Part shown: positions 33,735 through 49,315 of the stretch, one piece after another | Layout of the letters: each line of letters starts with the position of its first letter | Position numbering within the stretch: the first letter of the stretch is position 1 | Assembly: GCA_017549335.1 (NCBI GenBank) | Contig: JAFYVB010000017.1 | Coordinates: forward strand, 22,162 to 86,161 | Source: Clostridia bacterium | Lineage (GTDB): Bacteria; Bacillota; Clostridia; Christensenellales; Aristaeellaceae | Direction of reading: 5' to 3' | Length of the DNA stretch: 64,000 nt | Notes under the pieces: generated by a model | Databases searched by the model: none | The model's input: the letters and a program-made list of their open reading frames with translations, nothing else | What the model was told of the DNA's origin: nothing | Made by a program: the position numbers and the translations under genes

Positions 33735-33790
33735 GATATTTTCCTCCTTCATGTTACGAAACAGAAGTTGTATTTTCGGGTATGTTCTAT

Positions 33791-33941: not shown

Positions 33942-33974
33942 ATACGCATAGCAAAACTTTGTTATGTTTTATGC

Positions 33975-34003
33975 TTGTATTTCGGCAGAAGAAGTGCTAC
34001 AAT
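33975..34003 (+). promoter_or_regulatory. Promoter of the FAD oxidoreductase gene
   Basis: TTGTAT and TACAAT are separated by 17 bases, 90 bases upstream of the ATG at 34093. Confidence 0.7.
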
Positions 34004-34092
34004 GAAAAAAACTGTGTTTTTTCTGCGGCAGACTGTCCGCTCTGTCCGTATTATCCTGTTTTATAAGAAATAAATGAACGGAGGATCCCATC

Positions 34093-35961
34093 ATGGCCAT
34101 TCGTAAAAAGCAAAAGCAGGCGGCCTTTGACGTGATCGTGGTAGGCGGCGGCATGACCGGTCTGTGCGCAGCCATCGCCAGCGCCCGTCACGGTGCCAAA
34201 ACAGCGCTGGTACAGGACCGTCCCGTATTTGGCGGCAACGGCAGCAGCGAAATCCGTATGCATATCTGCGGCGCTTCCAATAATATGCGCAAAAAGAACG
34301 CCGAGGAAACGGGCATCGTGCGCGAACTGCTGCTGGAAAACCGCCGTCATAACGATTACTATAACTGGTCTGTATGGGATCGCATCCTGCACACCGCCGC
34401 CAAGGAACAGGAAAATCTCAGTATGTTCCTGAACACCACCATGTTCGACTGCGAAACGGAAGGCAAGCGCGTCACTTCCATCAAATGCTACCAGCTGACC
34501 ACCGAGATCGAATGGACGCTCACCGCGCCTGTTTTCTGCGATTGCACCGGCAACGGCACGCTGGGCTTCATGGCCGGCGCTCCCTACCGCACCGGCACCG
34601 AATGCAAGGCCGAATTCAACGAGCCTCACGCTCCCGAGCAGCCCGATAACGAGCGCATGGGCAATACGCTGCTGTTTAAGGCCGTCAACCGCGGCAAGCC
34701 CGTGGAATTCGTCGCCCCCGAAGGCTCCTACAAATTTACCGAAAAGCAGCTGCGCTACCGCAAGCACGCCGACCTGATCGACGAAACCGGCAAAAAGCTG
34801 GAAGAGGAAGCCGATGAGCTGCTGGACAACATGGACGACGCCACCAAGAGTCTGGTGACCGACTCCTACTGCGTGGACTACGGCTACTGGTGGATCGAGA
34901 TTACCGGCGAAAAGGCGGATATCATCGAAGAGTACGAAGACATCCGCGACGAGCTGATCAAGTGCGTCTACGGCGTATGGGATCACATCAAGAACGACGG
35001 CAACCACGGCGCCGCCAATTACGACCTTGAATGGGTGGGTATGCTGCCCGGTATGCGTGAGAGCCGCCGTCTGGAAGGCGACTATATCCTCACCGAGTGC
35101 GACCTGATCAACAACGAAGTTTTCCCCGACGCCGTTGCTTACGGCGGCTGGGCGGCTGACAAGCACGTTGCCCGCGGTCTGTTTGACTTTGACAAGATGC
35201 CCAGTGAGATCTACGATTTTGACGGTCTGTACACCATCCCCTACCGCAGCTTCGTGGCCAAGGATATGGAAAACCTCTTTATCAGCGGCCGCAGCCTGTC
35301 TGCATCCCGTCTGGCCATGGCCTCCAGCCGCGTTATGGCCACCTGCGCCGTGGGCGGTCAGGCCGTAGGCACCGCCGCCGCACTGTGCAAAAAGTATCAT
35401 TGCGATCCCCGCGGCGTGATGGAGCACATGAAGGAACTGCAGCAGGAGCTGCTCAAGGATGACTGCTACATCCCCGGTTACAAAAACGAGGATGAAAAGG
35501 ATCTGGCTCGCAAGGCCTGCGTCACCGCTACCACCGAAAAGCACGCCGCCGCCAACGTCATTAACGGCGTTGCCCGCAGCGAAGGCGAAAACGAAAACTG
35601 TTGGCAGTCCTGCGGCATTGCGGAAGGCGGCGAAACCCTGTCCCTGCGCTGGAAGGAAACTCAGCAGGTTTCTCAGGTGCGGTTGACCTTTGACCCCAAC
35701 CTCAACCACTGCATCAAGCTGACCATGTCTTCTCACCGCATGGCGGAGCAGGGCACCGGCGTCGCCCCCGAGCTCATCCGCGATTATGACGTGCTGCTGA
35801 TCAGGGACGGCAAAACCGTGGCCGAAAAGCAGGTGCGCGGCAACTACCAGCGCCTCAACGTCATCGATTTCGATGCCGCCCTGTGCGACGAGATCGCCGT
35901 TCGCGTACACGCCACCCACGGCTGCGCGGACGCCCGCATCTTCGAAGTGCGCGCGTACTGA
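34093..35961 (+). CDS. FAD-dependent oxidoreductase with C-terminal beta domain
   Basis: A 622-residue flavoprotein of the FAD_oxidored (PF12831-like) type. The dinucleotide motif VVGGGMTGLCAAIASARHGA starts at residue 14, followed by FGGNGSSEIRMHI and CDCTGNGTLGFMAG. A second FAD contact appears as NLFISGRSLSASRLA near 395. The last 140 residues look beta-rich with a galactose-binding/discoidin flavour (AANVINGVARSEGENENCW). No signal peptide. Members sit in glycan-utilisation loci; a sugar or polyol oxidation role is likely but unproven. Context: divergent from phosphoesterase-gntR and next to a sugar importer. Confidence 0.85.
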   Translation: MAIRKKQKQAAFDVIVVGGGMTGLCAAIASARHGAKTALVQDRPVFGGNGSSEIRMHICGASNNMRKKNAEETGIVRELLLENRRHNDYYNWSVWDRILHTAAKEQENLSMFLNTTMFDCETEGKRVTSIKCYQLTTEIEWTLTAPVFCDCTGNGTLGFMAGAPYRTGTECKAEFNEPHAPEQPDNERMGNTLLFKAVNRGKPVEFVAPEGSYKFTEKQLRYRKHADLIDETGKKLEEEADELLDNMDDATKSLVTDSYCVDYGYWWIEITGEKADIIEEYEDIRDELIKCVYGVWDHIKNDGNHGAANYDLEWVGMLPGMRESRRLEGDYILTECDLINNEVFPDAVAYGGWAADKHVARGLFDFDKMPSEIYDFDGLYTIPYRSFVAKDMENLFISGRSLSASRLAMASSRVMATCAVGGQAVGTAAALCKKYHCDPRGVMEHMKELQQELLKDDCYIPGYKNEDEKDLARKACVTATTEKHAAANVINGVARSEGENENCWQSCGIAEGGETLSLRWKETQQVSQVRLTFDPNLNHCIKLTMSSHRMAEQGTGVAPELIRDYDVLLIRDGKTVAEKQVRGNYQRLNVIDFDAALCDEIAVRVHATHGCADARIFEVRAY

Positions 35962-36064
35962 TTTGTCCGAAAAGCATGAGCAGCCGGCAGATGCATTGTC
36001 ATTGCACAGAGGAAGGTTTTTCCCTCCTTGTCTTAAATCACGGGAAATACAAATAATTCAGGCA

Positions 36065-36107
36065 GTTATGGTTTGAAGGAAACCCTTCAAGCCATAACCG
36101 CTTTTTT
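36065..36107 (+). terminator. Terminator of the FAD oxidoreductase gene
   Basis: GTTATGGTTTGAAGG pairs with CCTTCAAGCCATAAC around a short loop, followed closely by TTTTTTC. The 100 bases between the stop at 35961 and this hairpin hold nothing I recognise. Confidence 0.85.
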
Positions 36108-36152
36108 CTTTCCGCGGAACGATCAAACCTGCCCCGGCAGCCATCATGTGCA

Positions 36153-36181
36153 TTGACACCGCATAGTTTTCGGAATAAAAT
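36153..36181 (+). promoter_or_regulatory. Consensus promoter of the partner-switching operon
   Basis: TTGACA and TAAAAT are separated by exactly 17 bases. It is the only strong promoter found ahead of the eight-gene run 36371-46101. Confidence 0.8.
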
Positions 36182-36187
36182 ATATGC

Positions 36188-36370
36188 AATAAACTGAAAG
36201 AAAAATCATGAGAAAGGAGGACTGTCGGATCGGCGTTTTCCTTGGGCTGCGCTCGGCCTCTGCTACGGTATTGATCCGATATAACTGCACGTCGCCGTCC
36301 GGGCCGGAGGAAACGGAAGGAACCATCAAATACGCTTTATTGACAAGGCACTGATAAAGGAGAGCAAGCG
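36188..36370 (+). other. Long 5' leader of the partner-switching operon
   Basis: About 180 untranslated bases separate the promoter from the first STAS gene. The stretch contains an isolated AAGGAGG near 36216 with no usable start codon at the right distance, and GC-rich complementary segments (CCGTCCGGGCCGG). A 48-codon ORF from 36209 has no ribosome site and no recognisable sequence. I see no known riboswitch consensus. Confidence 0.4.
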
Positions 36371-36667
36371 ATGACTATCAACAAAAATGCAATCGGAACT
36401 CAAACCACACTGGAGATTATCGGAAGGCTGGATACAACGACCTCGCCGGAACTGGAAGCAGCCGTTGACGCCTGTTTTGCCGATACGCAAACGTTGATAT
36501 TGGATTTTCACGGATTGGAATACATCTCCTCCGCCGGCTTACGTGTTCTTTTGAAAGCCCAGAAAGGCATGGCGCAAAAAGGAAGCATGAAAGTTCTGAA
36601 CGTCAACGAAACCATCATGGAAGTATTTGAAATCACCGGTTTTTCCGACATTCTGACGATTGAATAA
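36371..36667 (+). CDS. STAS-domain protein 1 (anti-sigma-factor-antagonist type)
   Basis: A 98-residue single STAS domain like SpoIIAA/RsbV. It keeps LEIIGRLDTTTSPELE, the phosphoacceptor loop LEYISSAGLRVLLKA (Ser54 aligned with the phosphorylated Ser of RsbV) and the C-terminal helix EVFEITGFSDILTIE. In partner switching such proteins are phosphorylated by an RsbW-type kinase and dephosphorylated by a SpoIIE-type phosphatase; both domain types are encoded downstream in this operon. ATAAAGGAGAG precedes the ATG. It is a close paralogue of the STAS gene at 37296. Confidence 0.93.
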   Translation: MTINKNAIGTQTTLEIIGRLDTTTSPELEAAVDACFADTQTLILDFHGLEYISSAGLRVLLKAQKGMAQKGSMKVLNVNETIMEVFEITGFSDILTIE

Positions 36668-36685
36668 ACAAAGGAGGATGCAACC

Positions 36686-37282
36686 ATGAAATCAAACATC
36701 TGCACGATTCAAAAAGGCGGCCTTGGACTGGAAACCATTTTGACCGAAGTGGAAAAGGTTGCCGCTTACAACGGCCTGCAAAAGAAAGAAACCCTCCGTC
36801 TCCGTTTGCTCGCAGAGGAGCTGACGGGCATGCTGCCGGAGCTTGTCAGGAACTTTGAAGGCTCCTTCTGGATGCAGAATAATGAAAACAAGTACGAGCT
36901 TCATGTGGATCTTTCCGTTGACAGCCTGAGCAAGGAAAGAAAGCAAGCGCTGATCGACGTATCCGCCGCCAAGAAAAACGCTTCCGCTGCGGGCTTCATG
37001 CAGAAAATTCGGGATATTGCCGAAAACATGCTGCTCTATTCCGAAGAGCCCAATATTAACCATTTTTATATGCCCGAGTATATGTTTGATTATTGCCCCG
37101 ATGATTATCACTATGCGTATGCATGGACGCTGGATCACTATGTTTCTCAGCAGCACGAAAGAAAGGCCGACGACAAGGAATGGGATCAGCTGGAGAAGTC
37201 GATCGTTGCCAAGCTGGCGGATGACGTGATCGTGGGCGTGAGAGGCAGAAAAGTCGAGATCATTATCAAGAAAGAATTTTAA
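36686..37282 (+). CDS. Unknown protein with degenerate GHKL-like N-terminal region
   Basis: A 198-residue soluble protein lying between two STAS genes. Residues 15-75 (ILTEVEKVAAYNGLQKKETL, then RLLAEELTGMLPELV and two strands) have the helix-strand order of the N-box part of HATPase/RsbW domains, but the conserved Asn is absent and no DxGxG box is visible. The last third carries the strand pair DDVIVGVRGRKVEIIIKKEF. The same pattern ends the protein encoded at 37636. A non-catalytic partner for the STAS proteins is my inference; no family is recognised. AAGGAGG precedes the ATG by 7 bases. Confidence 0.7.
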   Translation: MKSNICTIQKGGLGLETILTEVEKVAAYNGLQKKETLRLRLLAEELTGMLPELVRNFEGSFWMQNNENKYELHVDLSVDSLSKERKQALIDVSAAKKNASAAGFMQKIRDIAENMLLYSEEPNINHFYMPEYMFDYCPDDYHYAYAWTLDHYVSQQHERKADDKEWDQLEKSIVAKLADDVIVGVRGRKVEIIIKKEF

Positions 37283-37295
37283 GGAGAAAACGGCT

Positions 37296-37592
37296 ATGAC
37301 GATTCATCAGAACAGAGAAGAAGCCAAACTGACGGTTGCTATTGAAGGCCGCCTGGACACCATGACCGCACCGGAACTGGAAAAAGCCCTTGAGAAAATC
37401 TGGAGCGGCGTTTCGGAGTTTGTATTGGATATGACTCGCCTGGAGTATGTTTCCTCTGCAGGCCTGCGCGTGATTCTCAAGGCTCAGAAAATCATGTCCC
37501 GTCAGGGAAAGATGAAGCTTGTCGGCGTGAACGAGAGCATCATGGAAGTGTTTGAGATCACCGGATTTACCGACATTCTGACCATCGAGTAA
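37296..37592 (+). CDS. STAS-domain protein 2 (anti-sigma-factor-antagonist type)
   Basis: A 98-residue single STAS domain, the same length as STAS protein 1 and very close to it in the loop and C-terminal helix (LEYVSSAGLRVILKAQK, MEVFEITGFTDILTIE). Ser54 is again the expected phosphoacceptor. The N-terminal halves differ more (REEAKLTVAIEGRLDTMTAP), which suggests duplication then divergence for different partners. It starts 13 bases after the stop of the GHKL-like gene, with AAGGAG upstream. Confidence 0.93.
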   Translation: MTIHQNREEAKLTVAIEGRLDTMTAPELEKALEKIWSGVSEFVLDMTRLEYVSSAGLRVILKAQKIMSRQGKMKLVGVNESIMEVFEITGFTDILTIE

Positions 37593-37635
37593 TCGGAAAA
37601 AGCGTCCGCAAACGCATTTGAAAGGGAAATCAACT

Positions 37636-39111
37636 GTGGACACCACGCTGAAGGCCATATACATTGCTTTGCAAATCGCACCGGTCATTGCTTTGGTATT
37701 GGTTGTACCGTACGTAATGTTCAGCTATACGAAATCCCGCAGCCTGAACGTGCGATGGTTTACATACCTTTATATACTGACGCTTTATTTTCTGTGCGCA
37801 TACTTCATGACAATGCTTCCTTTGCCAAGCAGAGAAAGCTTTGCAGCCATGCGTCCGGTCAGCGAGCTGATCCAGTTGATCCCCTTTCAGAACTTCCTCG
37901 ATATCAAGGCGCAGTCCTTGGCCCGTGATATTGCCATTCTGGTTTTCAATGTGTTTCTTACCGTGCCGTTGGGATTTTTTCTGCGGTATCTGTTTGGATT
38001 CAATCTGAAAAAAACAGTATGGTACGGTTTTCTGACCGCATTGCTTTATGAAATCACACAGCTGACCGGACTGTTCTTTATCTATCCGAGGCCCTATCGC
38101 ATTTTCGACGTGGATGATCTGACCATCAACACCCTCGGCGCTTTCATCGGATATTACTGCGCGCCTCTCCTGTCCCCTGTTTTGCCGTCGCCCTTTGACG
38201 CCAAGCACAATCTGGCACAGGGAAGCGAGGTATCCTTCTTCCAGCGTTGCGCGGCAAGCCTGATCGATTTCGGCATTGTCTTATGCACCAGCATTCTGGT
38301 GATCGTTGGCATTCCTCCCCTTCGAAAAGTTCTGTCCCACAGCGTCTCTCTGTGGAGATTCCCCCATTTCTACCTGCTGTTTCTTGCCATTGGCGCCGTA
38401 TATGGGCTGCTGTTTCCGGGAGGAACGCCGGGAAGCAGGCTTACGGGGCTCCGGCTGATGACAAAAGGCGGAAAGAGCGCATCCCGTTTTCGCTGCGCCG
38501 CGCGTTTTTTGATCATCTGTACGTCGGTTATCGCAATCCCGTTCTGGGTGTACTTCTTTATGACGGTGAACAGCGAGTATGCCGGTGCAAAGAGCGTCAT
38601 CTGGGTGTCCTTCGGCGCTTTGCTCATGATGTTTGCCGCCGCCGTTCTCCTGGAAATGATGTTCAACGCCGTAACCCACGGAGCATCCATGTTCTATGAC
38701 CGTTTTTTAAAAACCTACATTGCCTACGGGAAAAACCGCAATTTCTCCCTGTTCGGCATCCGGGTCATCGATATTCAGCCGCTGACAAGAGCCAACGTCG
38801 ACCTGTTTGCAACCGAAATCAACGACGTTCTTCTCACCATGGGAGAAGAACGCGAATCGGTCATCAAGGTGCGATTGATGGTAGAGGGCATTATGCTGGA
38901 CTGGATTGGAAACGAACTGGCAAACGCGCCGTGCGAGTTGCGTTTGGATAAACGATACAGACGCAACGTTCTGATGCTGAGCGTGCCCGGAGAGGATCGA
39001 ACCAACCATTCCCTGACCGATAGCTATGCCGAAATGTTAAGCGGCCTGAATCTGACGATCGAAACCTATTATGCCGCAGAGAAAAACATTTGCAACATCT
39101 TTATTCCGTAA
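37636..39111 (+). CDS. VanZ-RDD membrane protein fused to a degenerate GHKL-like domain
   Basis: A 491-residue protein in three parts. Residues 1-185 are VanZ-like, with LTLYFLCAYFMTMLPLP, FNVFLTVPLGFFLRYLFG and the DVDDLTINTLGAFIGY end. Residues 190-360 are RDD-like (FFQRCAASLIDFGIVL, GSRLTGLRLMTKGGK, more helices). The C-terminal 120 residues are soluble: TEINDVLLTMGEERESVIKV, RLMVEGIMLDWIG, then strands, like the protein at 36686. Start: GTG at 37636 behind AAAGGGAAA. Neither a transport substrate nor an enzymatic role is known. The fusion suggests a membrane output controlled through STAS partners. Confidence 0.75.
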   Translation: MDTTLKAIYIALQIAPVIALVLVVPYVMFSYTKSRSLNVRWFTYLYILTLYFLCAYFMTMLPLPSRESFAAMRPVSELIQLIPFQNFLDIKAQSLARDIAILVFNVFLTVPLGFFLRYLFGFNLKKTVWYGFLTALLYEITQLTGLFFIYPRPYRIFDVDDLTINTLGAFIGYYCAPLLSPVLPSPFDAKHNLAQGSEVSFFQRCAASLIDFGIVLCTSILVIVGIPPLRKVLSHSVSLWRFPHFYLLFLAIGAVYGLLFPGGTPGSRLTGLRLMTKGGKSASRFRCAARFLIICTSVIAIPFWVYFFMTVNSEYAGAKSVIWVSFGALLMMFAAAVLLEMMFNAVTHGASMFYDRFLKTYIAYGKNRNFSLFGIRVIDIQPLTRANVDLFATEINDVLLTMGEERESVIKVRLMVEGIMLDWIGNELANAPCELRLDKRYRRNVLMLSVPGEDRTNHSLTDSYAEMLSGLNLTIETYYAAEKNICNIFIP

Positions 39112-39162
39112 CGGTCACCGTTTGACGCTGCCGCAGCAAAGCCGGTGAAAGGAGCGAACGCA

Positions 39163-40407
39163 GTGAAAAGGAAGTATCCGTTGGGCGTAATGGATCTGTA
39201 TCCCATCGCCGCCAACAAAACGCAAATCGAAAACAACCCTTTTCTTCAAGCTCGTCTGAAAGAACCGGTGGATGCAGATCGTCTGCAGGCAGCGGTCAAA
39301 AAATCACTGACTGAGCATCCGCTGTTTGGATGTACCCTCCGGTATGACCGGGGGTATTACCTTGAAACCAACGAAAAGGAATTTTCGCTGATCCACGCAG
39401 ACGAAAAAAGCAGACCGCTGTCCTTCGGCGATGCCACGAACGGCTATTTATGGCAGATATGTTATGACCGGTGTACCATCACCTTCGAATGGTGCCATGC
39501 GGTCAGCGACGGCAGAGGCGGCTTCGCCTTCTTCTCCTCTGTGCTGTGCCATTATTTCGGTGCGGAAATCCCGGTAGAGCCCGCATTGGCTCCGGGACTT
39601 GAAAGCTTCTATAACAAAAAGGAAAAAGGGATCCCCCAGCGGAAACAGGCTCCGGGCTTTGCGGCCAATGCGCTTCCCTTCCTCAAGCGCGGCTATCAGA
39701 CCGATTGCCACATCCTCAAGGCGCCCATGAGCGAGGTGCTTGCCGCCGCAAGGAAGAACGACGCCTCCCCTGCGGCCGTTCTCCCCCCGTTGGTTTCCAT
39801 GGCGCTGCGCAAGCATATCTCCCCCACAGCAAGGAACAGAAACGTTGCCTGCAATGTGGTGATCGACTGCCGCGGTCCCATGAATTTTCAGACGATGCAC
39901 AACTGCATCATCTCCAAGAACATTACATACATTGACCGCTTCGACACCATGGATTTTCCTCTCGTCAGCACCATTTACCGGGCCATTCTTGATCTGGCGG
40001 TGCAGAAGGAAAACATCGTAAAGGCGGCCACGGAAACCGCGGATATGCTCCGCCCCATCGTTTCTGTAAAGCCGCGCTTCCTGCAAAAGGCACTGGCACA
40101 GATTGCAGCCGGTGTGATGAAGCATTCCGACAGCAATTTCACCTTCACCTATCTGGGAAAAATGAACCTGCCCGCCGAAGTGATGGCCGGACTTGAGGAT
40201 TTCAATTTCCGTTCCTGGACGGATTTCGGTGAATGCAACGTCGCCGCCATAGACTTCGGCGGCACGCTGATTTTGAATATTTGCGAGAACTATCGGGATA
40301 AACAGATCATTCCCGACCTGATCGATCTGTGCTCCGGAGTAGGCATTCACTTTGAAACGACAGAGAAGCTCCTCTTTGAGCAGGCGAATCTGAGACTTTC
40401 CGTCTGA
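39163..40407 (+). CDS. Condensation/alcohol-acetyltransferase-fold protein
   Basis: A 414-residue cytoplasmic protein of the CoA-dependent acyltransferase superfamily (PapA, WES, CAT and condensation-like). It opens YPLGVMDLYPIAANKTQIEN, with LQAAVKKSLTEHPLFGCTL, and keeps the catalytic HxxxDG motif as EWCHAVSDGRGGFAFF near residue 113. A C-terminal TYLGKMNLPAEV with NICENYRDKQ is also family-like. It probably transfers an acyl group to an alcohol or amine. The start is GTG at 39163 behind AAAGGAGC; a GTG six codons earlier overlaps the ribosome site. Confidence 0.78.
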   Translation: MKRKYPLGVMDLYPIAANKTQIENNPFLQARLKEPVDADRLQAAVKKSLTEHPLFGCTLRYDRGYYLETNEKEFSLIHADEKSRPLSFGDATNGYLWQICYDRCTITFEWCHAVSDGRGGFAFFSSVLCHYFGAEIPVEPALAPGLESFYNKKEKGIPQRKQAPGFAANALPFLKRGYQTDCHILKAPMSEVLAAARKNDASPAAVLPPLVSMALRKHISPTARNRNVACNVVIDCRGPMNFQTMHNCIISKNITYIDRFDTMDFPLVSTIYRAILDLAVQKENIVKAATETADMLRPIVSVKPRFLQKALAQIAAGVMKHSDSNFTFTYLGKMNLPAEVMAGLEDFNFRSWTDFGECNVAAIDFGGTLILNICENYRDKQIIPDLIDLCSGVGIHFETTEKLLFEQANLRLSV

Positions 40408-40446
40408 TACACGGATCCTTCGAACAGATGAAAGGAGACCTCACGG

Positions 40447-41436
40447 ATGAATGAATCTTTAAAAGCAGCCATGCGCGAAATTCTGCTTGATCGTTACGGG
40501 ATCGACATCGAAAGGGCAAAATGCCATTTTTCGACCCAGAATTATGCCTTTGTGTTCCCCGGCGAGCCCTTTATGATTCGCGTAAGCGCCACGCCCAAAA
40601 AGACCCGCGGCGAGATTTTGAGCGAGCTGATGTGGCTTGATGATTTAAAGCAGTTCAAACAAACGGTTTGCGAGCCCAACGTCTCCCTGCGCGGAAATCT
40701 GCTGGAGGAATTCGAGATCGACGGAAAAACATATCGGGCCAGTATGTTCCGCACCGCCAGAGGCGTGATCAAATCGACCACGGACATGACGCCTCTCTTC
40801 TTCATCTGCGTGGGCGATCTGCTGGGCGCGATCCACCACGTCAGCACAGACGAACGCGAACTGGGCATCAAATTCAAGCGGCAAAGCAAGGCCGGGGATT
40901 TTGCTGCGCTCAAAGCGCGCGTAGCCGATAAGGTTCCGGCCTCCGTCATGGAAAAGATCGAAAGGATCGAAGCGCAGGTCAATGGTCTTTCGCAGGATAT
41001 CGGACGGTACGGCCTCTGCCATGGCGACTTCCACATGAACAACTTCTTCGTGGAGGAAAACAATATCTGGGTCTTTGACTTCGACGGCTGTGCTTACGCG
41101 CATTATCTGTACGATATCGCAAGCTTTATTCAGGCCTGCTTCCTGTGCGGCTATGGCGCCGGACGGGATTTGCGCAAGGTCATGGACGAGATACTGCATT
41201 ATTTCAAAATCGGTTATACGCTCAATCATTCCTGTGATGAGCATTTCTGGGATGATCTGGAACTGTTTATTGCCTACAGAACGGCGCTTACCTATCTGTC
41301 ACTTTGTGAAATCGATAACATCGGCGTGGTTGAGGATACGAACAAGATCAAACAATTCTTTGGCTTTATCGTGTCGCAGGACGACGTGATGAATGCCATG
41401 ACAGCAGCGATGGGAAAAGGCGGCAGACTGATTTGA
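40447..41436 (+). CDS. APH-type phosphotransferase
   Basis: A 329-residue protein of the aminoglycoside phosphotransferase/choline kinase fold. The nucleotide lobe has NYAFVFPGEPFMIRVS with EILSELMWLDDL. The catalytic loop is GLCHGDFHMNNFFVE near residue 195, and the metal-binding Asp lies in IWVFDFDGCAYAHYLYDIAS near 215. Its neighbours give no hint of antibiotic resistance, so a small-molecule or lipid head group is a likelier substrate. The TGA overlaps the TTG start of the MATE gene (TTGA), so the two are translationally coupled. Confidence 0.85.
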   Translation: MNESLKAAMREILLDRYGIDIERAKCHFSTQNYAFVFPGEPFMIRVSATPKKTRGEILSELMWLDDLKQFKQTVCEPNVSLRGNLLEEFEIDGKTYRASMFRTARGVIKSTTDMTPLFFICVGDLLGAIHHVSTDERELGIKFKRQSKAGDFAALKARVADKVPASVMEKIERIEAQVNGLSQDIGRYGLCHGDFHMNNFFVEENNIWVFDFDGCAYAHYLYDIASFIQACFLCGYGAGRDLRKVMDEILHYFKIGYTLNHSCDEHFWDDLELFIAYRTALTYLSLCEIDNIGVVEDTNKIKQFFGFIVSQDDVMNAMTAAMGKGGRLI

Positions 41437-43189
41437 GAAACGATTTCCTTGTCAGAAAAACATATCTTTCTTTCGTTATTACCGCAATTTTGACCTCCTT
41501 GACCGCCACCGTGGGGATGTTGATCGATAATATCATCATCGGTCAGTCCCTGGGCTCCGACGCGCTTGGCGCCATGGGAATCGTAGGGCCGATCAGCCTG
41601 ATCTTTTCCGCGTGCGGCAATATCTGCTCCGGCGGCGGCGGTGCAAAAGCGGCGCAGGCGCTGGGACGCGGTCAAAAAGATCGCTTCCGTCAGATTTTTA
41701 CGGTCAATATGCTGTTTGTGCTGGCTTCCGGCTTGTCCTTTACGGTGCTGGGAATGCTCTTCGCTCCGCAGATCGCTGTTTTTCTGGGCGCAAAGGAGGC
41801 TCTGCTGGAGCCGGCAACCCAGTATCTGTATGGATATTTCCTCGGCGCGGTGCCGACCATTGCCGTCAGCGCAATGATGAGCTTCATCCGCATGGACGGC
41901 TCGCCCAGGCTGCCGCTGGCGTGCATCGCCGTCATGTCCGCAGCCAACATCGTACTGGATCTGATGATGATCTATGTTTTCCATCTGGCATGTTCGGCAT
42001 GGCGCTGGCCACGACGATCAGCTACTGCCTTGCACTGGCAACCGCCTGCCTGCACTTCCTGAAAAAAGACACGGCTTTGCGTCTCATCCGTCCTGCCGGC
42101 CTGCTGCGTGAGCTTGGCAGCACGATCTATACCGGTTTCCCCACAGCGATCAGCCGCATCAGCGACACGGTCAAGGTAACGCTGCTGAACAACCTGCTGG
42201 CGGCCTTTGTTTCGGTGTCCGCCATTACTGCCCTGAGCATCAGAACACAGGCGCAGAATTTTCTCGGAGCGTTCATTCTCGGCATCAGTCAGGCGATCAC
42301 CCCAACAATCGGAATGTTTTTCGGCGAAGAGGATCGCACGGCGATGCGGGACACCTTAAAGGTAACGCTCCGCTTCGGATGTATCGTGGTCGCGGTTCTT
42401 TCTGCCGTTCTCCTTGCAGTTCCCTTCCTGTTTTGCCGTCTTCTGGGAATTCAGGACGCCGGCATCCTGAATATGTCCAATACGGCTTTACGCTTTTTTG
42501 CCGTTGCATTGCCCGTCTATCTGATCAACACCGTTTTGATGAACTTCTATCAGTGTACAAAACGGGTGGGGCTTTCTTCCATGATCTGCATCCTGCAGTC
42601 GCTGGTATATACAGTGGTGTTTGCGTTGATCCTGATTCGCCCGCTGGGCGCAGCAGGCGTGTGGACTGCCTTTTTGCTGGGTGAGCTGCTGACCTTAATG
42701 ACCACTGTGCTCTTTATCAGCTTCAAAAACAAAAAGCCGGTCTCATCGCTGGATGACCTTATGATGCTGGACGCGGATTTCGGCGGATCGGAACAGGATC
42801 GGGTGGAATTGTCCATCGGAAACAGCATGGACGAGGTAATGACCATTTCCGCCGGTATCTATCAATTCGGAAACGATCGCGGAATCAGCACCAAAACGCT
42901 GCACACCCTGTCCCTTTGCATTGAGGAAATGGCCGGCAACGTCATTCGTCATGCCTTTAAACCGGGAGAAAAGCGCTGGCTTGACGTAACCCTTATCAAC
43001 AAGCCGGATACCGTCATCTTCCGTCTGCGGGATAACGGCGCGGCGTTTGATCCGCTTGCGTATCCGGGTCAGGGAAATACCGATACCTATGGGATCCGAA
43101 TGATCCGCGCTTTAGCCCAGGAATTTGAGTATCGGCGCAGCATGGGGCTGAACAATCTGATCATTCATCTGAAAAAGGAAACAGAGTAA
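41433..43189 (+). pseudogene. MATE transporter fused to RsbW-type kinase domain, broken by a 1-nt frameshift
   Basis: The N-terminal frame (41433 on) is a MATE/NorM-like transporter: FVITAILTSLTATVGMLIDN, GSDALGAMGIVGP, GGGGAKAAQALGRGQKDRFRQ. Near 41987 the text CTGGCATG leaves the frame; one extra G (CTGGGCATG) would restore HLGMFGMALATTISYC and lead straight into the second frame to 43189, giving 585 residues. The C-terminal 140 residues are an RsbW-type ATPase: LCIEEMAGNVIRHAF, FRLRDNGAAFDPL, GIRMIRAL. No slippery heptamer is evident. The defect is either a sequencing error in a G run or a recent mutation. The fusion links export to STAS phosphorylation. Confidence 0.85.
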
Positions 43190-43266
43190 CCGGTTAATCG
43201 CATAACCGCCGCCCCGGGCAGCACGCGGCAAGCCAAGCGAACGCAGCCCCTTTTGGATGAAAGGAA

Positions 43267-46101
43267 ATGAATTTGAATATGAGGCTTTCAATTCCGATTC
43301 TTCTGAATATTTTGCTTGTGGTGACCTTTTATTCCGCAGACAAGCGTACAAAATTCAAACTGCTGCCTCAAGCATCAAAACAAATCATCATCGGCGTGAT
43401 GTTCGGCGGCGTGTCCGCTTTTTCGTCGAGCTTTGGCGTGGCGTGGCTCGGAACCATCGTCAACGTCCGTGATGCCGCGCCTTTGTCTGCAGGTCTTATT
43501 TTCGGCGCCCCGGCAGGTATTATCGCAGGATTTATCGGCGGCCTGTACCGCTGGTTTTCCGTGTATTGGGGCGGCGGAGAATACACCCGTCTTGCCTGTA
43601 CGGCAGCAACCATTTTGGCGGGCTTCATCGCAGCAGGGCTGAGAAAGCTGATGTTTGACGACAAGAAGCCCACCTGGGGATACGGAATCTGCGCCGCGGT
43701 TGTGTGTGAAATTCTTCACATGATCCTGATTTTCCTGACCAACATGGATAATTCGTCCCAGGCGTTTGAATTTGTCCGGGGCGCAAGCCTTCCCATGGTT
43801 CTGGGCAATGCCATCGCGGTGGGGCTCTCCCTTGTGTTCGTTTCCTTGCTGAGTCACGAGCGTCTTACCCGCAAAAAAGGCAGCGAACAGATCGCGCAAA
43901 CCTTCCAGCGCTGGCTGCTCATGTGCATCGTGATCGCCTACCTGATCACAAGTACGTTTACATTCATCCTGCAAAACGGGATGGCGAAGATCGAAACCCA
44001 GGAATTGTTTACAACCGCAATCAACGACGTAAAGACCGACGTCAGAGGGAAATCCGACGCCTATATGCTTGCCGTTACCAAAAACATTGCAGACCGCTAT
44101 GAGGCAGACCCGACGGTTTCTTTGGCCTTGCTGGCGGAAGAGTATGACGTTATTGAAATCAACGTCGTGGCGCAGGACGGTCTGATCCTCCATTCCACGG
44201 ACGCCTCCCTGTCCGGCGCGTTCAATATGAACAGCAGCGAGCAATCCAAAGCCTTTATGGTTCTTACCCAAGGCGAAACCTCTCTGGTGCAGGAATACGG
44301 CCCCATCGGCATCGACGGGACAACCATGCGAAAATATGCGGGAATTACCCTTGCGGGCGGCGGCTATATTCAGGTAGGCTACAGCACGGAGCAGTTCCAT
44401 GATATGCTGGATGAGTTTGTTGTGGACGTTACGAAGAACCGGCACGTCAGCGCCAACGGCTTTATCGCCGTATGCGACGAGAACCTGAACTTGGTGACGG
44501 AAACCTTCCGTAACGGTGCGCACATCTCCACCATCGGCATTGTTCCCAATGCGGAAATGAACAACGGGGAATTCGCCAAAGCCCTTTGCGAAGCGGAAAT
44601 TGTGAACAGTGAAACCGGATACCGGGAAGCCTACGTCTATGTGTTTACCTTTGTAGAAGGCTACTGCATCATCGCAGCCATGCCCAAGTCCGACGTAATG
44701 TTCATGCGGGATGCCTCTCTGTATACCAGCGTGTTCATGCAGGTGCTTATTTTTGCCTCTCTGTTTATTCTCATTTACATTCTGATCAAACGAGTGATCA
44801 TCAACAACCTGAAAAAAGTCAACGGCACATTGGCGCAAATAACCAACGGAAACCTGAATGTGACGGTGGACGTACGCAGCAACGAAGAATTTGCCTCCCT
44901 GTCTGACGATATCAATTCCACCGTGGCGACGCTGAAGCATTACATTGACGAGGCGGCTGCCCGTTTTGACAAGGATCTGGAAATCGCAAAGACGATCCAG
45001 CACTCCGCCTTGCCTTCCGTTTTCCCGCCTTATCCCGATCGGAAGGATTTCAGCATCTTTGCCAGCATGGATGCCGCCAAGGAAGTCGGCGGAGATTTTT
45101 ACGATTTCTATCTGTTGGATGATCACCGTCTTGCCTTTGTGATGGCAGACGTTTCCGGCAAGGGGATTCCCGGAGCGATGTTTATGATGACCGCCAAAAC
45201 GCTGCTCAAAAGCCATGCAGAAAGCGGTCTGGCGGTTCATGACGTGTTCACGCAGGTCAATTCGCTGCTTTGCGAAAACAATGAAGCCGGAATGTTTGTG
45301 ACTGCCTGGATGGGTATTCTTGATCTGGAAACAGGTCTGATACGCTATGCCAATGCAGGACATAATCCGCCTGTGATTCGGCGCCGGGACGGTACTTATG
45401 AGTATTTGAAAGGAAAAGCCAATTTCGTATTGGCCGGAATGGAAGGCGTCCGCTACAGAGAGCAGCAGCTTCAGCTGCAGCAGGGGGATGAGATTTACCT
45501 TTATACCGACGGTATAACGGAAGCCCATGACCCGAGCAATCAGCTGTTTGGCGAAGGCCGCCTTTTATCCAGTCTGAACAGTGCAATCCATCTGCCGGTG
45601 GAGGATATCTGTAAAAAGGTCAAAACCGACGTGGATGCATTCGTCGGAACAGCCGAGCAGTTTGACGATATTACCATGATGTGCATTCGGTTAAACGAGA
45701 CGGAAAGCAAAATGCTGTCCGTCAAGCCGACCATGGATGCAATCCCTCAGGCAGCGGCTTTCGTGGAAGAGAATCTGGAGAAATTCGAGGTGCCTATGGG
45801 ACTGAGCGCCAGGCTGATGGTCGCTTTGGACGAAATATTCTCCAATATCGTAAGATACAGCGGTGCATCCGAAGCACAGATCCGCCTTGTCAAGGAAGCG
45901 GATACCCTGAGATTGATTTTCCGTGATAACGGAAAGCCCTATAATCCCCTGGATGCAGAAGCGCCGGATATCACCGCATCCGCAGAGGATCGTACCATCG
46001 GCGGACTTGGTATTTTCATGGTGCGAAAAATGATGGACAATGTGGAATATGAGTATACGCACGGCATGAACAAATTAACGCTGTCGAAGAAATTGACGTA
46101 A
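43267..46101 (+). CDS. 5TM-LYT / Cache-like sensor with HAMP, SpoIIE phosphatase and RsbW-type kinase
   Basis: A 944-residue membrane receptor. Residues 1-205 form a 5TM-LYT module (NVRDAAPLSAGLIFGAPAGI, GGLYRW). TM about 215-235 and 485-505 frame an extracytoplasmic Cache-like sensor (LVTETFRNGAHIS). HAMP covers about 505-560. A PP2C/SpoIIE phosphatase covers about 570-810 (VGGDFYDFY, FVMADVSGKGIPGAMF, YTDGITEAHD). The C-terminal 130 residues are an RsbW-type ATPase (LMVALDEIFSNIVRYSG, FRDNGKPYNP, GGLGIFMV). Both the phosphatase and the kinase of a partner switch thus sit in one chain. The ATG at 43267 is very close to AAGGA; TTG 43273 or ATG 43279 are alternatives. Confidence 0.9.
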   Translation: MNLNMRLSIPILLNILLVVTFYSADKRTKFKLLPQASKQIIIGVMFGGVSAFSSSFGVAWLGTIVNVRDAAPLSAGLIFGAPAGIIAGFIGGLYRWFSVYWGGGEYTRLACTAATILAGFIAAGLRKLMFDDKKPTWGYGICAAVVCEILHMILIFLTNMDNSSQAFEFVRGASLPMVLGNAIAVGLSLVFVSLLSHERLTRKKGSEQIAQTFQRWLLMCIVIAYLITSTFTFILQNGMAKIETQELFTTAINDVKTDVRGKSDAYMLAVTKNIADRYEADPTVSLALLAEEYDVIEINVVAQDGLILHSTDASLSGAFNMNSSEQSKAFMVLTQGETSLVQEYGPIGIDGTTMRKYAGITLAGGGYIQVGYSTEQFHDMLDEFVVDVTKNRHVSANGFIAVCDENLNLVTETFRNGAHISTIGIVPNAEMNNGEFAKALCEAEIVNSETGYREAYVYVFTFVEGYCIIAAMPKSDVMFMRDASLYTSVFMQVLIFASLFILIYILIKRVIINNLKKVNGTLAQITNGNLNVTVDVRSNEEFASLSDDINSTVATLKHYIDEAAARFDKDLEIAKTIQHSALPSVFPPYPDRKDFSIFASMDAAKEVGGDFYDFYLLDDHRLAFVMADVSGKGIPGAMFMMTAKTLLKSHAESGLAVHDVFTQVNSLLCENNEAGMFVTAWMGILDLETGLIRYANAGHNPPVIRRRDGTYEYLKGKANFVLAGMEGVRYREQQLQLQQGDEIYLYTDGITEAHDPSNQLFGEGRLLSSLNSAIHLPVEDICKKVKTDVDAFVGTAEQFDDITMMCIRLNETESKMLSVKPTMDAIPQAAAFVEENLEKFEVPMGLSARLMVALDEIFSNIVRYSGASEAQIRLVKEADTLRLIFRDNGKPYNPLDAEAPDITASAEDRTIGGLGIFMVRKMMDNVEYEYTHGMNKLTLSKKLT

Positions 46102-46155
46102 GATCTTCCCGTCTGAAAAAGAATCCTCAAAGCTCAATGTATCCCGCAGCAAAAC

Positions 46156-46192
46156 ACGAGCATCCGGCGAAAACGCCGGATGCTCGTTTGTG
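46156..46192 (+). terminator. Terminator of the partner-switching operon
   Basis: ACGAGCATCCGGCG pairs perfectly with CGCCGGATGCTCGT around AAAA, followed by TTGTG. The outer arms match those of the hairpin at 50057-50093. Confidence 0.8.
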
Positions 46193-46242
46193 TATGCAGC
46201 TGCAAAGTGATGTGTCTTCGGACCGGCCGGACAAATCGGAAT

Positions 46243-46416
46243 TTACTTATCTTCTTTTTCTTTCTTCGATACGAGAATGATTGAGCCAACAAGTAAAGCA
46301 ACTCCAAGAGTAAAGAACACACATCCCGCCACCGTATTTAGCTGATTTGCAAAGAAACCAATCATTCCGGCACCCGCTGCACAGCAAATTACTTGAAGCA
46401 TTTTTTTCATATTCAT
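46243..46416 (-). CDS. 57-residue two-helix membrane protein
   Basis: A short ORF (MNMKKMLQVICCAAGAGMIG ... SKKEKEDK) with two hydrophobic stretches, about residues 7-25 and 30-50, and a charged lysine-rich tail. GGAGAG lies six bases before the ATG, and the ATG overlaps the GNAT stop as ATGA, which supports its being real. It has no recognisable family. Base composition is AT-richer than most of the window. Confidence 0.7.
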   Translation of the reverse strand: MNMKKMLQVICCAAGAGMIGFFANQLNTVAGCVFFTLGVALLVGSIILVSKKEKEDK

Positions 46417-46958
46417 AAAACACTCTCCGTCAAATGCTTATTTCGGTTCGTCCACTCTTCTCTTGTCATGGCAAAAACCTTTGTAATTTCATTGATCTCA
46501 TCCGAATACTCGCCCACTTGTTTACAGCCATAAGAAAGGGCTGTTTTCGCTGACGGTTCATTGGTATACTTCATATAGGAATAAACCGTATTAAACGGGG
46601 TATTATTGAAAGTCCAATCCCTGACCGCAATCGCCGCCTCTTTGGCATATCCTTTTCTTTGTTTATCAGCTCTTATGTGGTATCCAATTTCCGGCTTTAT
46701 CTGACCGTTGATAAGCTGCATTGTCAAACCGCAATCACCTATCATCTCGCCGGTTTCTTTCAAACAGACAGCCCATAATCCAAAGCCCAATATCTGATAT
46801 CTGTCTATATTTCGCCGGATCCAGTTTTTCACCCTGTCTTCGTCAAATGTATATGGATAATGCTGCATTATATCCGAATCAGCCAATACTTTATAAAGCG
46901 CAACGAAATCGTTTTGCGTCATTTCTCTTAATAACAGACGTTCTGTTTCAATAACCAT
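46413..46958 (-). CDS. GNAT-family N-acetyltransferase, RimJ/RimL type
   Basis: A 181-residue protein: IETERLLLREMTQNDFVALY at the start, GFGLWAVCLKETGEMIGDCG, the acetyl-CoA loop region IRADKQRKGYAKEA near 108, and a C-terminal NEPSAKTALSYGCKQVGEY. This is the RimJ/RimL-like branch (acetyltransf_3), which acetylates protein N-termini or small amines. The ATG at 46958 follows GAGGAG. It is coupled to the 57-residue membrane protein. Its AT-rich codons suggest it is an accessory gene. Confidence 0.9.
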   Translation of the reverse strand: MVIETERLLLREMTQNDFVALYKVLADSDIMQHYPYTFDEDRVKNWIRRNIDRYQILGFGLWAVCLKETGEMIGDCGLTMQLINGQIKPEIGYHIRADKQRKGYAKEAAIAVRDWTFNNTPFNTVYSYMKYTNEPSAKTALSYGCKQVGEYSDEINEITKVFAMTREEWTNRNKHLTESVL

Positions 46959-47015
46959 TACGTTGCTCCTCTTCAAATTCAAGTGTATCGCTTTGATTTT
47001 ATCACGGAAGCAGTC

Positions 47016-47774
47016 TCATTCCCCGTGAATAACCGGCGCGCGCCCGTTTTCCCCGGGGGTTTTAAAGCATTGCGGCACCTGCGTATCGCAGATCATATCA
47101 TCCATGTCCTGCACCTTGCCCAGCACATAGAAATACCCGCGGCCGATCTTGTTGCCCGTCGTCAGAAGGATTCTGCGCTTGGCATGGCGCATCATCAATT
47201 GCCGCAGCTGGGCTTCGGCCACCGAGCTGTCCGTCATGCGTCCGTCCTCGGTCACGCCGCGGCAGGAGAAAAACAGCTTGTCCGCATTGAGGGTGCGCAC
47301 CAGATCTTCGGCATGGCTGCCGATCATGGAAAAGCTGTTGTCGATCATGCGCCCGCCCGTCAGGTAGGTTTTGATATGCCTTTCTCCCAGCGCCATGGCA
47401 GCCTTTACGCCGCTGGTGATAACGATCAGGTTTTTGAAATCCTTCAGATAGGGGATCATATTATAAACCGTGCTGGAAGCATCCATAAAAATAACGTCGT
47501 TATCCTTCACAAGTCCTGCCGCAATGCGGCCGATCTTCTGCTTGGCCTCCAGTTCCTCGCTTTCCCGCAGCAAAAGAGGCACGTCACGGTTGATGCCCAC
47601 CAGCACGGCGCCGCCGTACACGCGGCGAACGATCCCCTCTTTTTCAAGGGCATTGAGATCGCGGCGAACGGTGGCCTCGCTGACGTACAGCCGCTTGGCG
47701 ATATCGCCCACAGACACCATCCGCCCATCGCTCAGAAGCTTTACAATCTGATCGTGTCTTTCTTCCCCGAACAT
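47016..47774 (-). CDS. DeoR-family transcriptional regulator
   Basis: A 252-residue regulator. The DeoR HTH at residues 5-60 (RHDQIVKLLSDGRMVSVGDI then RLYVSEATVRRDLNALEKEG) is followed by a DeoRC sugar-phosphate sensor with IGRIAAGLVKDNDVIFMDAS, YLTGGRMIDNSFSMIG and LFFSCRGVTEDG. The ATG at 47774 with GGAGGT was preferred to an ATG eight codons earlier. It is divergent from the G1P dehydrogenase gene, and three 10-bp repeat units sit between the two promoters. It probably controls that gene and itself. Confidence 0.92.
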   Translation of the reverse strand: MFGEERHDQIVKLLSDGRMVSVGDIAKRLYVSEATVRRDLNALEKEGIVRRVYGGAVLVGINRDVPLLLRESEELEAKQKIGRIAAGLVKDNDVIFMDASSTVYNMIPYLKDFKNLIVITSGVKAAMALGERHIKTYLTGGRMIDNSFSMIGSHAEDLVRTLNADKLFFSCRGVTEDGRMTDSSVAEAQLRQLMMRHAKRRILLTTGNKIGRGYFYVLGKVQDMDDMICDTQVPQCFKTPGENGRAPVIHGE

Positions 47775-47796
47775 AACGGCACCTCCATTTTCTTCC

Positions 47797-47825
47797 ATTA
47801 TAAAACCTCAGCGCCCATATTGCAA
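47797..47825 (-). promoter_or_regulatory. Promoter of the deoR-type gene
   Basis: On the minus strand TTGCAA and a perfect TATAAT are 17 bases apart, 22 bases upstream of the start at 47774. Confidence 0.8.
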
Positions 47826-47830
47826 TTCAT

Positions 47831-47860
47831 TTTTGCTCATCTTTGCTCGTTTATGCACAT
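47831..47860. repeat. Three tandem 10-bp units, candidate DeoR operator
   Basis: TTTTGCTCAT, CTTTGCTCGT and TTATGCACAT follow each other without gap. Direct repeats with a helical-turn period are typical of DeoR-family operators. They lie just upstream of the deoR -35 and 35 bases before the -35 of the G1P dehydrogenase promoter. Confidence 0.6.
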
Positions 47861-47894
47861 TTTTATGTCCTTTTTCCAAATATGATGGCAATTG

Positions 47895-47923
47895 TTGACA
47901 AAACCGATTCATCCTACTAAAAT
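47895..47923 (+). promoter_or_regulatory. Promoter of the G1P dehydrogenase gene
   Basis: A perfect TTGACA and TAAAAT are separated by 17 bases, 45 bases upstream of the ATG at 47969. Confidence 0.85.
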
Positions 47924-47968
47924 GAAATCGTCCCAATAGAAAATCTGAGTAAAGGCTGGTTGATAACA

Positions 47969-49315
47969 ATGATCGATTTCTCCACTGCCTCTCTTGAAAC
48001 CCTGATCGCCAAGGGCGGTCACGACTGCGCCTGCGGCCGTCATCACGCCATGAATATGGACTATCTGCGCATCGAATCCGGCGCGGTGAAATATGTTGCC
48101 GAAGGTCTGAAGGCCATCGGCGGCACCAAGCCCTTCATCGTATGCGATAAAAATACAAAGGCTGCCGCTTGGGAGCCCGTAAAGGCTGAGCTGGACAAGG
48201 CCGGCATCCCCTACGTGCTGTACTGCTTCCCCGGCAAGCACATCGAGCCCGATGAGCATGCCATGGGCTGCCTGACCATGGCTTACGATCCCTCCTGCGA
48301 CTGCGTCATGGGCATTGGCTCGGGCGTGATCAACGACTGCTGCAAGGTGCTGTGCCATGCCGTGGGCGTCAAGCAGATGATCGTGGGCACCGCTCCCTCC
48401 ATGGACGGCTATGCCAGCAACTCCTCCGCCATGATCCGCGACCGCATCAAGGTTTCCCTGTACGGCGATGCGCCTGCCGCCATCATCTGCGACATCGACA
48501 TCATCAAGGAAGCCCCCATGCGTATGCTGTGGGCGGGCTTTGGTGATATGCTGGCCAAGTACATCGCTATCTGCGAATGGCGTATTTCCAACATGGTCAC
48601 CGGCGAATACTACTGCGAAAACATCGCCAACCTGATGCGTGCCTCCCTCAAAAAGATCGTGGACAACGCCCCGGGGCTCAAGACCCGCGACGCTGCCGCC
48701 GTTCAGGCCACCGTGGAAGGTCTGGTACTTTCGGGCGTTGCCATGAGCTATGCCGGCATCTCCCGTCCCGCCAGCGGTCTGGAGCACTACTTCAGCCACC
48801 TGTGGGAAATGATGGCGCTGGATCGCGGTACCGATTACGAGCTCCACGGCATTCAGGTGGGCGTAGGTACGCTGATCACCCTGAAGCTGTACGATGTGAT
48901 CCGCAACATCAAGCCTGACCGTGCCACCGCCGAAAAATTCATCAATGAATTCACCAACGAGGAATGGGAAAAGATGATCCGCTCCATCTTCGGTCAGGCC
49001 GCCGAAACGGTGATCGAGCAGGAGCACAACATCTTCCACAAGAATGACAAGGCCCGTCATGCCGATCGCCTCACCAAGATTCTGGATGGCTGGGACAACG
49101 TGCTGCGCTTCATCGAGGAAGAGCTGCCCGCCACCGAAAAGATCGCCGCGCTGATGAAGGATCTGGGCATGCCCATGGTTCCCGCCGACATCAACGTAAG
49201 CAAGGAAGATACCGACGCTGCCTTCATCGGCTCCCGCGACATCCGCGACAAGTATCTCTCCAGCACCATGCTGTGGGATCTGGGTCTGCTGTACACCACC
49301 AAGCTGCCCGAATAA
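47969..49315 (+). CDS. egsA: sn-Glycerol-1-phosphate dehydrogenase (AraM/EgsA type)
   Basis: A 448-residue iron-containing-alcohol-dehydrogenase-fold enzyme. NAD-binding and active-site motifs are CVMGIGSGVINDCCK near 115, GTAPSMDGYASNSS near 140, AGFGDMLAKYIA, and the metal ligands in RPASGLEHYFSHLWEM and ELHGIQVGVGT. Bacterial AraM makes glycerol 1-phosphate from dihydroxyacetone phosphate, a precursor of unusual ether-type lipids or modified polymers. The ATG at 47969 is 13 bases after AAAGG; a TTG at 47960 is an alternative. The upstream DeoR regulator probably controls it. Confidence 0.9.
   Translation: MIDFSTASLETLIAKGGHDCACGRHHAMNMDYLRIESGAVKYVAEGLKAIGGTKPFIVCDKNTKAAAWEPVKAELDKAGIPYVLYCFPGKHIEPDEHAMGCLTMAYDPSCDCVMGIGSGVINDCCKVLCHAVGVKQMIVGTAPSMDGYASNSSAMIRDRIKVSLYGDAPAAIICDIDIIKEAPMRMLWAGFGDMLAKYIAICEWRISNMVTGEYYCENIANLMRASLKKIVDNAPGLKTRDAAAVQATVEGLVLSGVAMSYAGISRPASGLEHYFSHLWEMMALDRGTDYELHGIQVGVGTLITLKLYDVIRNIKPDRATAEKFINEFTNEEWEKMIRSIFGQAAETVIEQEHNIFHKNDKARHADRLTKILDGWDNVLRFIEEELPATEKIAALMKDLGMPMVPADINVSKEDTDAAFIGSRDIRDKYLSSTMLWDLGLLYTTKLPE

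Follow-up and report, generated by a model that had tools for sequence, protein, structure and literature searches.

What does a partner switch control when no sigma factor gene accompanies it? Partner switching is textbook control of sigma factors, and the question is raised by an operon from a Clostridia bacterium of the Aristaeellaceae (GenBank assembly GCA_017549335.1, contig JAFYVB010000017.1, positions 22,162 to 86,161 of the forward strand). We call this whole analysed stretch of 64,000 nucleotides the window. Eight genes, g1 to g8, lie on its plus strand at 36371-46101, with gaps of 13 to 77 bp and a single 4-bp overlap (g6/g7), just as an earlier note, made from the letters alone, had described them: co-directional, with short gaps or overlaps. 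Pfam identifies in this operon two STAS domains, VanZ, APH, MatE (over two open reading frames, ORFs), two HATPase_c_2 domains (on the MATE and SpoIIE proteins), 5TM-5TMR_LYT and SpoIIE. These domain labels stand, but RDD in g4 (21.0 bits against a Pfam cut-off of 24.1), which the note had also proposed, and HAMP in g8 (18.7 bits against 25) stay below threshold. For g8 the note had given 5TM-LYT, Cache, SpoIIE and RsbW parts, and all are matched except that Pfam found no Cache family there.

We read the locus, with modest confidence, as a sigma-free partner-switching operon in which the switch gates the MATE transporter (g7), the APH-type kinase (g6) is under the same switch, and the unnamed protein g2 is a STAS-binding partner. 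Judging from these domains and their relatives, the switch probably has a small-molecule kinase and an exporter as its outputs.

Sigma genes and the phosphorylation core

The window's genome, which is 86% complete, has seven Sigma70_r2 hits, all on other contigs and none on the window's own, in agreement with the earlier note's statement that the operon holds no sigma factor. To see relatives of the operon, we compared 117 loci that carry g2, the hallmark of the switch core. The sample is non-random: it comprises the window, 16 of 20 initial stretches, the best 80 of at least 584 stretches, and 20 hand-picked loci (same genus, fusions, and a few others), with ORFs called by a simple script and no gene finder. 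Four VanZ loci without g2 (L087-L090) were left out of it. With the genome's own sigma proteins as queries, matches appeared in six of the 117 loci. The sigma gene is about 2.7 kb off in L081 and about 7 to 10 kb off in L098, L103 and L161. It adjoins the core in just two, both Pfam-confirmed as ECF-type: in L230, from the same genus, it comes right after STAS-g2 (9140-9595), and in L248 it follows SpoIIE and HATPase genes (12926-13408). No sigma gene was found in 20 loci with MATE fusions. The earlier note had named homologous loci that always include a sigma factor as speaking against its idea, and this is not what the compared loci show.

The two adjoining ECF genes do count against a sigma-free switch, and they fit an alternative in which transcription is still the output. 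The RsbW-type domains would then sequester a sigma factor encoded elsewhere, the MATE, APH, VanZ and acyltransferase genes would be its regulon or linked cargo, and the fusion to MATE would only anchor an anti-sigma domain to the membrane. The seven sigma genes on other contigs are compatible with this, and sigma factors are the established end point of the classical Rsb and SpoIIA switches. We nevertheless consider it unlikely, given how seldom a sigma gene adjoins the core and that none was found beside the MATE fusions. Moreover, the STAS-APH and MATE-kinase-domain fusions described below are not needed for a sigma-only output: sigma control alone can hardly explain why a transporter carries a kinase domain and an enzyme carries that kinase's substrate domain.

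The residues expected of a working switch are largely in place. Ser54, which the earlier note had picked out in both STAS proteins, is indeed the second Ser of SSAGL in g1 and in g3. In the compared loci, 116 of 117 stand-alone STAS proteins have Ser in this column (the remaining one has Ile), as do all 24 STAS domains of ORFs of at least 300 amino acids (aa), 22 of these being STAS-APH proteins. On the kinase side, the HATPase domains of g7 and g8 both keep the N-box Asn and the G1 Asp. Across the loci compared the N-box Asn is kept in 30/30 HATPases fused to SpoIIE, 4/4 fused to STAS-APH, 5/6 fused to MATE, and 14/17 that stand alone, where the exceptions are two gaps and one Asp. Elsewhere in the window's genome, on contig C30 of genome G000 (L002, 1151-1905), a STAS and a HATPase gene form a further, separate pair, which resembles a SpoIIA-type pair.

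The kinase and the exporter in relatives

We found 22 STAS-APH proteins among the ORFs of the 117 g2 loci, of which four (L072, L081, L128 and L166) are STAS-APH-HATPase triple fusions; the domain make-up was checked with Pfam for L072, L079, L081 and L133. Among the matches listed, 42 of 200 family genomes encode a full-length STAS-APH protein (matches running from residue 35 or earlier to residue 309 or later of 408, partial matches being dropped). g2 is present in 33 of these 42 genomes and in 49 of the 158 others (Fisher p 3.6e-8, an optimistic value, as the genomes are related and kinship is uncorrected, and one that assumes the same 200 genomes in both searches, as the tables suggest). 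The APH motif HGDxHxxN is present in all 13 relatives checked and in g6, which has the features of the APH family: the fold, this motif and a metal-binding Asp. Judged by these fusions, the APH kinase belongs to the switch in relatives.

Other proteins accompany the APH domain. HD_4-family proteins adjoin STAS-APH in L108, L133, L139 and L145, and PHP-family proteins adjoin STAS-APH-HATPase in L072, L081 and L128 (in each case with Pfam run on one member). The Treponema locus L114 encodes an HD_4-APH protein ahead of g2, and L143 has matches to APH and to that HD_4 profile. Before HD_4-APH and g2, both Treponema loci (L114, 6329-9977; L143, 6336-9978) have further small genes and a member of a BioY-type cluster, the cluster being identified with Pfam from its L170 member.

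The fusion of a MATE transporter to a HATPase domain is likewise widespread. We counted, among the matches listed, 118 copies in 74 of the 200 family genomes (matches running from residue 50 or earlier to residue 340 or later of 400, with partial matches dropped and the window's copy excluded). Within a distance of 10 kb, 17 copies have g2 and 11 have STAS-APH as a neighbour, against expected numbers of about 1.5 and about 0.65. These are roughly 11 and 17 times a crude random expectation that assumes 2.8 Mb genomes and ignores short contigs. For these proximity counts partial and weak g2 matches were dropped, which left 134 g2 copies in 80 genomes. The 28 near pairs were inspected as loci for all 11 cases with STAS-APH and for nine of the 17 with g2. 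MATE-HATPase, STAS and g2 stand together in the latter nine (L298-L306), and MATE-HATPase and STAS-APH in the former 11 (L287-L297), seven of which also have SpoIIE, partly as fragments. L289, L290, L291 and L296 have HD_4, STAS-APH, STAS, MATE-HATPase and SpoIIE in common, with the MATE gene of L296 cut by the contig end and in opposite orientation. In L290 and L291, genes for a formyltransferase and an LPG_synthase_C-type transferase lie in between, at a place similar to that of the window's transferase. By their domains, then, these loci repeat the kinds of parts seen in the window (switch, kinase, transferase, exporter) with a different transferase, and MATE, by fusion and proximity, belongs to the switch set. 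Among the papers listed in searches of an open library, none treats MATE-HATPase or STAS-APH fusions by title or abstract, which is weak evidence that they are new.

The same gene families invite a different reading, namely a regulated antibiotic-defence cassette in which VanZ, APH, an acetyltransferase-like protein and MATE are switched on by a membrane stress sensor. All four fold families are used in drug resistance, the VanZ, APH and MatE matches are firm (Table 1), and weak matches to the vanZ-F and FepA MATE models exist. These NCBIfam scores are far below cut-off (vanZ-F 32.8 against 375; FepA 58.4 and 61.7 against 900), and the formyltransferase, LPG_synthase_C, HD_4 and PHP proteins in the relatives' loci look more like biosynthesis or metabolite turnover, which makes antibiotic defence very improbable to us. 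Defence against phages was considered separately and is not supported, PADLOC having returned no match for the eight operon proteins.

Several observations weigh against a switch that acts on the kinase and the exporter. g6 carries no STAS domain and matches the profile of the STAS-fused APHs at 1.6e-10, a distant similarity only; within the window's genome no STAS-APH was found, the best match being the operon's own STAS. Only three of 53 STAS-APH copies lie within 10 kb of g2, and a same-strand MATE-HATPase no more than 5 kb away is seen in only five of the 117 g2 loci, the window included. Where the earlier note had seen one MATE-RsbW gene, both domains are matched but on two ORFs in different frames (Table 1), and given this frame break the window's copy may be dead or misassembled. 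The MATE-HATPase of relatives is mostly one open frame, typically of about 580 to 690 aa, with a stop in some copies. HATPases fused to MATE have partly degraded glycine loops, and the MATE-fused domain of L136 lacks both key residues. L091, the closest relative, with a g2 that is 75% identical, has g2 and STAS as a lone pair, and DNA matches in that genome are confined to this pair and a SpoIIE gene on another contig. Across 10 congeners the DNA matches are only short, to the STAS and SpoIIE genes and the operon end. Finally, among the 116 other g2 loci a VanZ gene lies near the core only in L248 and an acyltransferase homolog only in L139.

L091, the scarcity of VanZ and acyltransferase near the core, and the MATE frame break would also suit a locus in which STAS-g2-SpoIIE forms a core system of its own, the genes for VanZ, acyltransferase and APH share its promoter as unrelated cargo, and the broken MATE marks decay. 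We find this quite improbable, since APH and MATE recur with the switch and are fused to its domains, although VanZ and the acyltransferase may still be there by chance. The earlier note's inference that the switch directly controls both synthesis or modification and export of a small molecule or lipid head group is accordingly narrowed. As kinds of protein, its kinase and transporter are linked to the switch by recurrence and fusion rather than being chance neighbours, its acyltransferase is not so linked, and direct control itself is something we infer.

The g2 family, g4 and g5, and the operon's flanks

A single-sequence search found g2 in 14 of 200 genomes of the order and a profile search in 82 of 200 genomes of the family, including six of 10 congeners. 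In a collection of genomes it occurs in at least 584 stretches, the best 80 of which are titled as Clostridia or other Bacillota and as Treponema or Spirochaetaceae. Its usual companion is STAS. A stand-alone STAS gene shares a gene chain with g2 in 96 of the 117 loci, and in 99 loci STAS is encoded on the same strand no more than 5 kb away; by copies, STAS is within 100 bp on the same strand in 89 of 125. SpoIIE, at the 5-kb limit, is a same-strand neighbour in 44 loci.

Pfam run on 64 g2 members gave no convincing family and no HATPase among the matches listed (best E 0.007, SpoIIIAH, two members), and a search of the PDB with g2 matched no solved structure (best E 0.6). The earlier note had called the protein GHKL-like, and profile comparison bears on this. 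When a profile of 110 g2 members is compared with the HATPase profile, the two match in register across residues 10-74, a stretch that takes in the N-box helix. The score is 24.1, a value reached by none of 150 column-shuffled g2 profiles (mean 12.4, sd 2.2, maximum 19.8); the reversed g2 profile gave no match to HATPase. Taken by itself, the 58-residue end of g2 aligns with the final 29 positions of the HATPase profile (score 16.9, a part that had no shuffle control). P-values were 0.003 to 0.004 against two HATPase profiles and 0.06 to 0.7 against STAS, SpoIIE, MATE and 5TMR-LYT profiles. The hhalign probability of a GHKL match is low, at 10.6% for the whole protein and 36.7% for the first 75 residues; this goes against the assignment and makes the match suggestive only. 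The label GHKL-like thus comes from the profile tests only.

Glu44 and Glu45 are invariant in g2, and Met49 falls at the position where a comparison with SpoIIAB residues would place the Mg-binding Asn of the N-box. A conserved DxG was not seen in a 20-member alignment or a 64-member consensus. g2 is thus without the ATP-binding residues of GHKL proteins. Together with the profile tests, this suggests a degenerate GHKL fold lacking the Mg-binding Asn, and we predict g2 to be a pseudokinase of the switch.

g2 also ends a longer protein in five loci (L240-L244). In L240 (9873-11594) and L241 (9920-11824) it sits behind an Mbeg1-like hydrolase (PF11187, 1.8e-76 and 7e-75), and the three proteins of L242-L244 cluster with these fusions. 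A 605-aa ORF in L245 (8711-10528) has a g2 domain at its C-terminus and no Pfam match. Other neighbours of the core were also seen. A 462-aa family without a Pfam match (L122, 6625-8013) occurs in seven of the 117 loci, all Treponema or Spirochaetaceae records, and a NUDIX-type cluster is present in five of those seven. Dihydroorotate-dehydrogenase/4Fe-4S proteins, identified with Pfam, lie near the core in L231 (1199-2710) and L290 (12505-14016), and the L231 cluster recurs in L082, L230 and L236. In L232 a xanthine/uracil permease gene follows HATPase, and in L290 a 1133-aa ORF with solute-binding domains, a permease and an ABC ATPase (688-4089), also matched by the HATPase profile, adjoins SpoIIE.

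The two remaining genes, g4 and g5, differ from the rest in their distribution. A GHKL domain had been proposed at the C-terminus of the VanZ protein g4, and this was not borne out: scores of that end against HATPase or g2 profiles were within shuffle range in 12 comparisons (6-98 of 100 shuffles scored as high), a weak test from a single sequence. The C-terminal ~130 aa matched no homolog in searches of 60 and 341 genomes, the matches ending by residue 373 of 497. For g5 the evidence on the acyltransferase fold proposed earlier is mixed: the HxxxD motif is present in g5 and in 27 of 29 homologs, six of 10 scanned homologs match AATase or PapA_C at E < 1e-4, and g5 itself has no Pfam match. 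Homologs of this type occur in 106 of 200 genomes of the order. In L139 the homolog is two genes after STAS-APH; L248, from another genus, reads STAS, STAS, g2, SpoIIE, HATPase, ECF sigma, VanZ and a MATE without a HATPase match. Because each is represented by one locus, we do not claim VanZ or the acyltransferase as members of the system, and the co-occurrence of all eight families that the earlier note had looked to is not conserved. A conserved eight-gene unit was rejected also on the four VanZ homolog loci that we fetched, L087-L090, which have no g2 or STAS match. A second VanZ-like ORF is found at 1655-2074 of the window (VanZ profile match 9.6e-23).

The promoter and terminator said to bracket the operon are both present as sites (Table 1). 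The region has 13 promoter-like sites where shuffles give 11.3, so the one at 36153-36181 is no evidence by itself, and the hairpin is part of a repeat: DNA similar to 46135-46199 is dispersed over contigs C3, C6, C7, C20 and C21 of the same genome. Upstream of g4, g5 and g7 there is no clear ribosome-binding site, which leaves their start codons uncertain. Rfam gave no match at gathering score in 33000-50000.

Table 1. The operon and its flanking signals, in window positions; numbers after family names are those of the profile matches
Feature	Positions	Strand	Description	Evidence
Promoter-like site	36153..36181	+	sigma-70-type, TTGACA-17-TAAAAT	11/12 consensus matches; consensus match only
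g1	36371..36667	+	STAS protein, 98 aa, candidate phosphosite Ser54	Pfam STAS 4.9e-15
g2	36686..37282	+	198 aa, unnamed family, likely degenerate GHKL fold (Glu45 kept, Met49)	profile tests
g3	37296..37592	+	second STAS protein, 98 aa, Ser54	Pfam STAS 3.5e-16
g4	37618..39111	+	VanZ domain, weak RDD-like region, ~130-aa C-terminal extension; start codon uncertain	Pfam VanZ 6.4e-23
g5	39145..40407	+	acyltransferase-like (AATase/PapA/condensation superfamily), HAVSDG at residue 118	homologs hit AATase/PapA_C
g6	40447..41436	+	APH-type kinase, catalytic HGDFHMNN and DFD present	Pfam APH 6.5e-14
g7, first piece	41433..42062	+	N-terminal MATE half; frame break near 41985-42010	Pfam MatE 4.8e-18
g7, second piece	41612..43189	+	C-terminal MATE half (from near 41987) and RsbW-type HATPase_c_2	MatE 1.1e-13, HATPase_c_2 2.4e-11
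g8	43267..46101	+	5TM-5TMR_LYT, unassigned region, weak HAMP, SpoIIE, HATPase_c_2	SpoIIE 1.4e-51, 5TMR_LYT 2.2e-26, HATPase_c_2 2.9e-18
Terminator-like hairpin	46156..46187	+	part of dispersed repeat, 3' of g8	14 pairs, strong

Proposed mechanism and known systems

Under the sigma-free reading, the membrane protein g8 would sense a signal through its 5TMR-LYT domain and the region that follows, and on that signal its SpoIIE domain would remove the phosphate from Ser54 of g1 and g3. Rephosphorylation of STAS would fall to the two RsbW-type kinase domains, that of g8 and that in the tail of the MATE protein. Unphosphorylated STAS would dock on the kinase domain of MATE, so that the state of the switch gates the transporter, and the APH kinase g6 would be under the same state, as the fusion of STAS to APH in relatives suggests. 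g2 would be a non-catalytic partner that binds STAS, either holding it or competing for it, and the acyltransferase g5 and VanZ protein g4 may be cargo peculiar to this locus that serves the same pathway. We infer all of these steps from the genes: phosphorylation, docking and gating, what g2 does, and the modification and export of a small molecule.

More tentatively, the operon may represent a class of post-translational partner switches that is widespread in Clostridia, with core parts also in Treponema. In this class a STAS switch would directly control a STAS-fused APH kinase and a MATE exporter that carries the STAS kinase as a fusion, the pseudo-GHKL protein g2 would be a dedicated non-catalytic partner, and there would be no transcription step. 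If true, one and the same switch would control chemistry and transport directly across many bacteria, the metabolite would become findable, and a function would be at hand for the unnamed g2 family, with its hundreds of members, and for the MATE-HATPase architecture.

Like RsbV/RsbW/RsbU and SpoIIAA/SpoIIAB/SpoIIE of Bacillus, the operon combines STAS proteins with a conserved Ser, a GHKL kinase domain, and a PP2C phosphatase with a membrane part. Unlike them, it has no cognate sigma gene, its kinase domains are fused to MATE and to the phosphatase, and it has the extra g2 family and an APH kinase that is linked or, in relatives, fused to STAS.

Partner switching with outputs other than sigma factors is already known. 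In SiaABCD of Pseudomonas aeruginosa, a PP2C phosphatase and a kinase set the phosphorylation of a small partner protein, and the output is an enzyme (PMC7647112). The operon would resemble it in both respects, and residues 567-809 of g8 match the SiaA model, although below cut-off (66.3 against 700). It differs in that the Sia output is a diguanylate cyclase (SiaD), a Pfam domain that the operon lacks. A precedent for an envelope output is SypA/SypE of Vibrio fischeri, where phosphorylation of a Ser switches a STAS protein that controls biofilm (PMC4517449); there SypE is a response regulator with both activities, and the portion of that paper available to us reports no transporter or APH fusion.

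STAS domains also occur in larger proteins, such as the SLC26/SulP transporters and the STAS-glycosyltransferase all4160 of Anabaena (reviewed in PMC8256260), so STAS-enzyme fusions as such have precedent. In the available text of that review of STAS-only proteins, the words MATE, aminoglycoside and diguanylate are absent. The loci described here likewise join a switch-type domain to a transporter or an enzyme, but in them the kinase domain is on MATE, STAS is on an APH-type kinase, and SpoIIE is encoded in many of the same loci.

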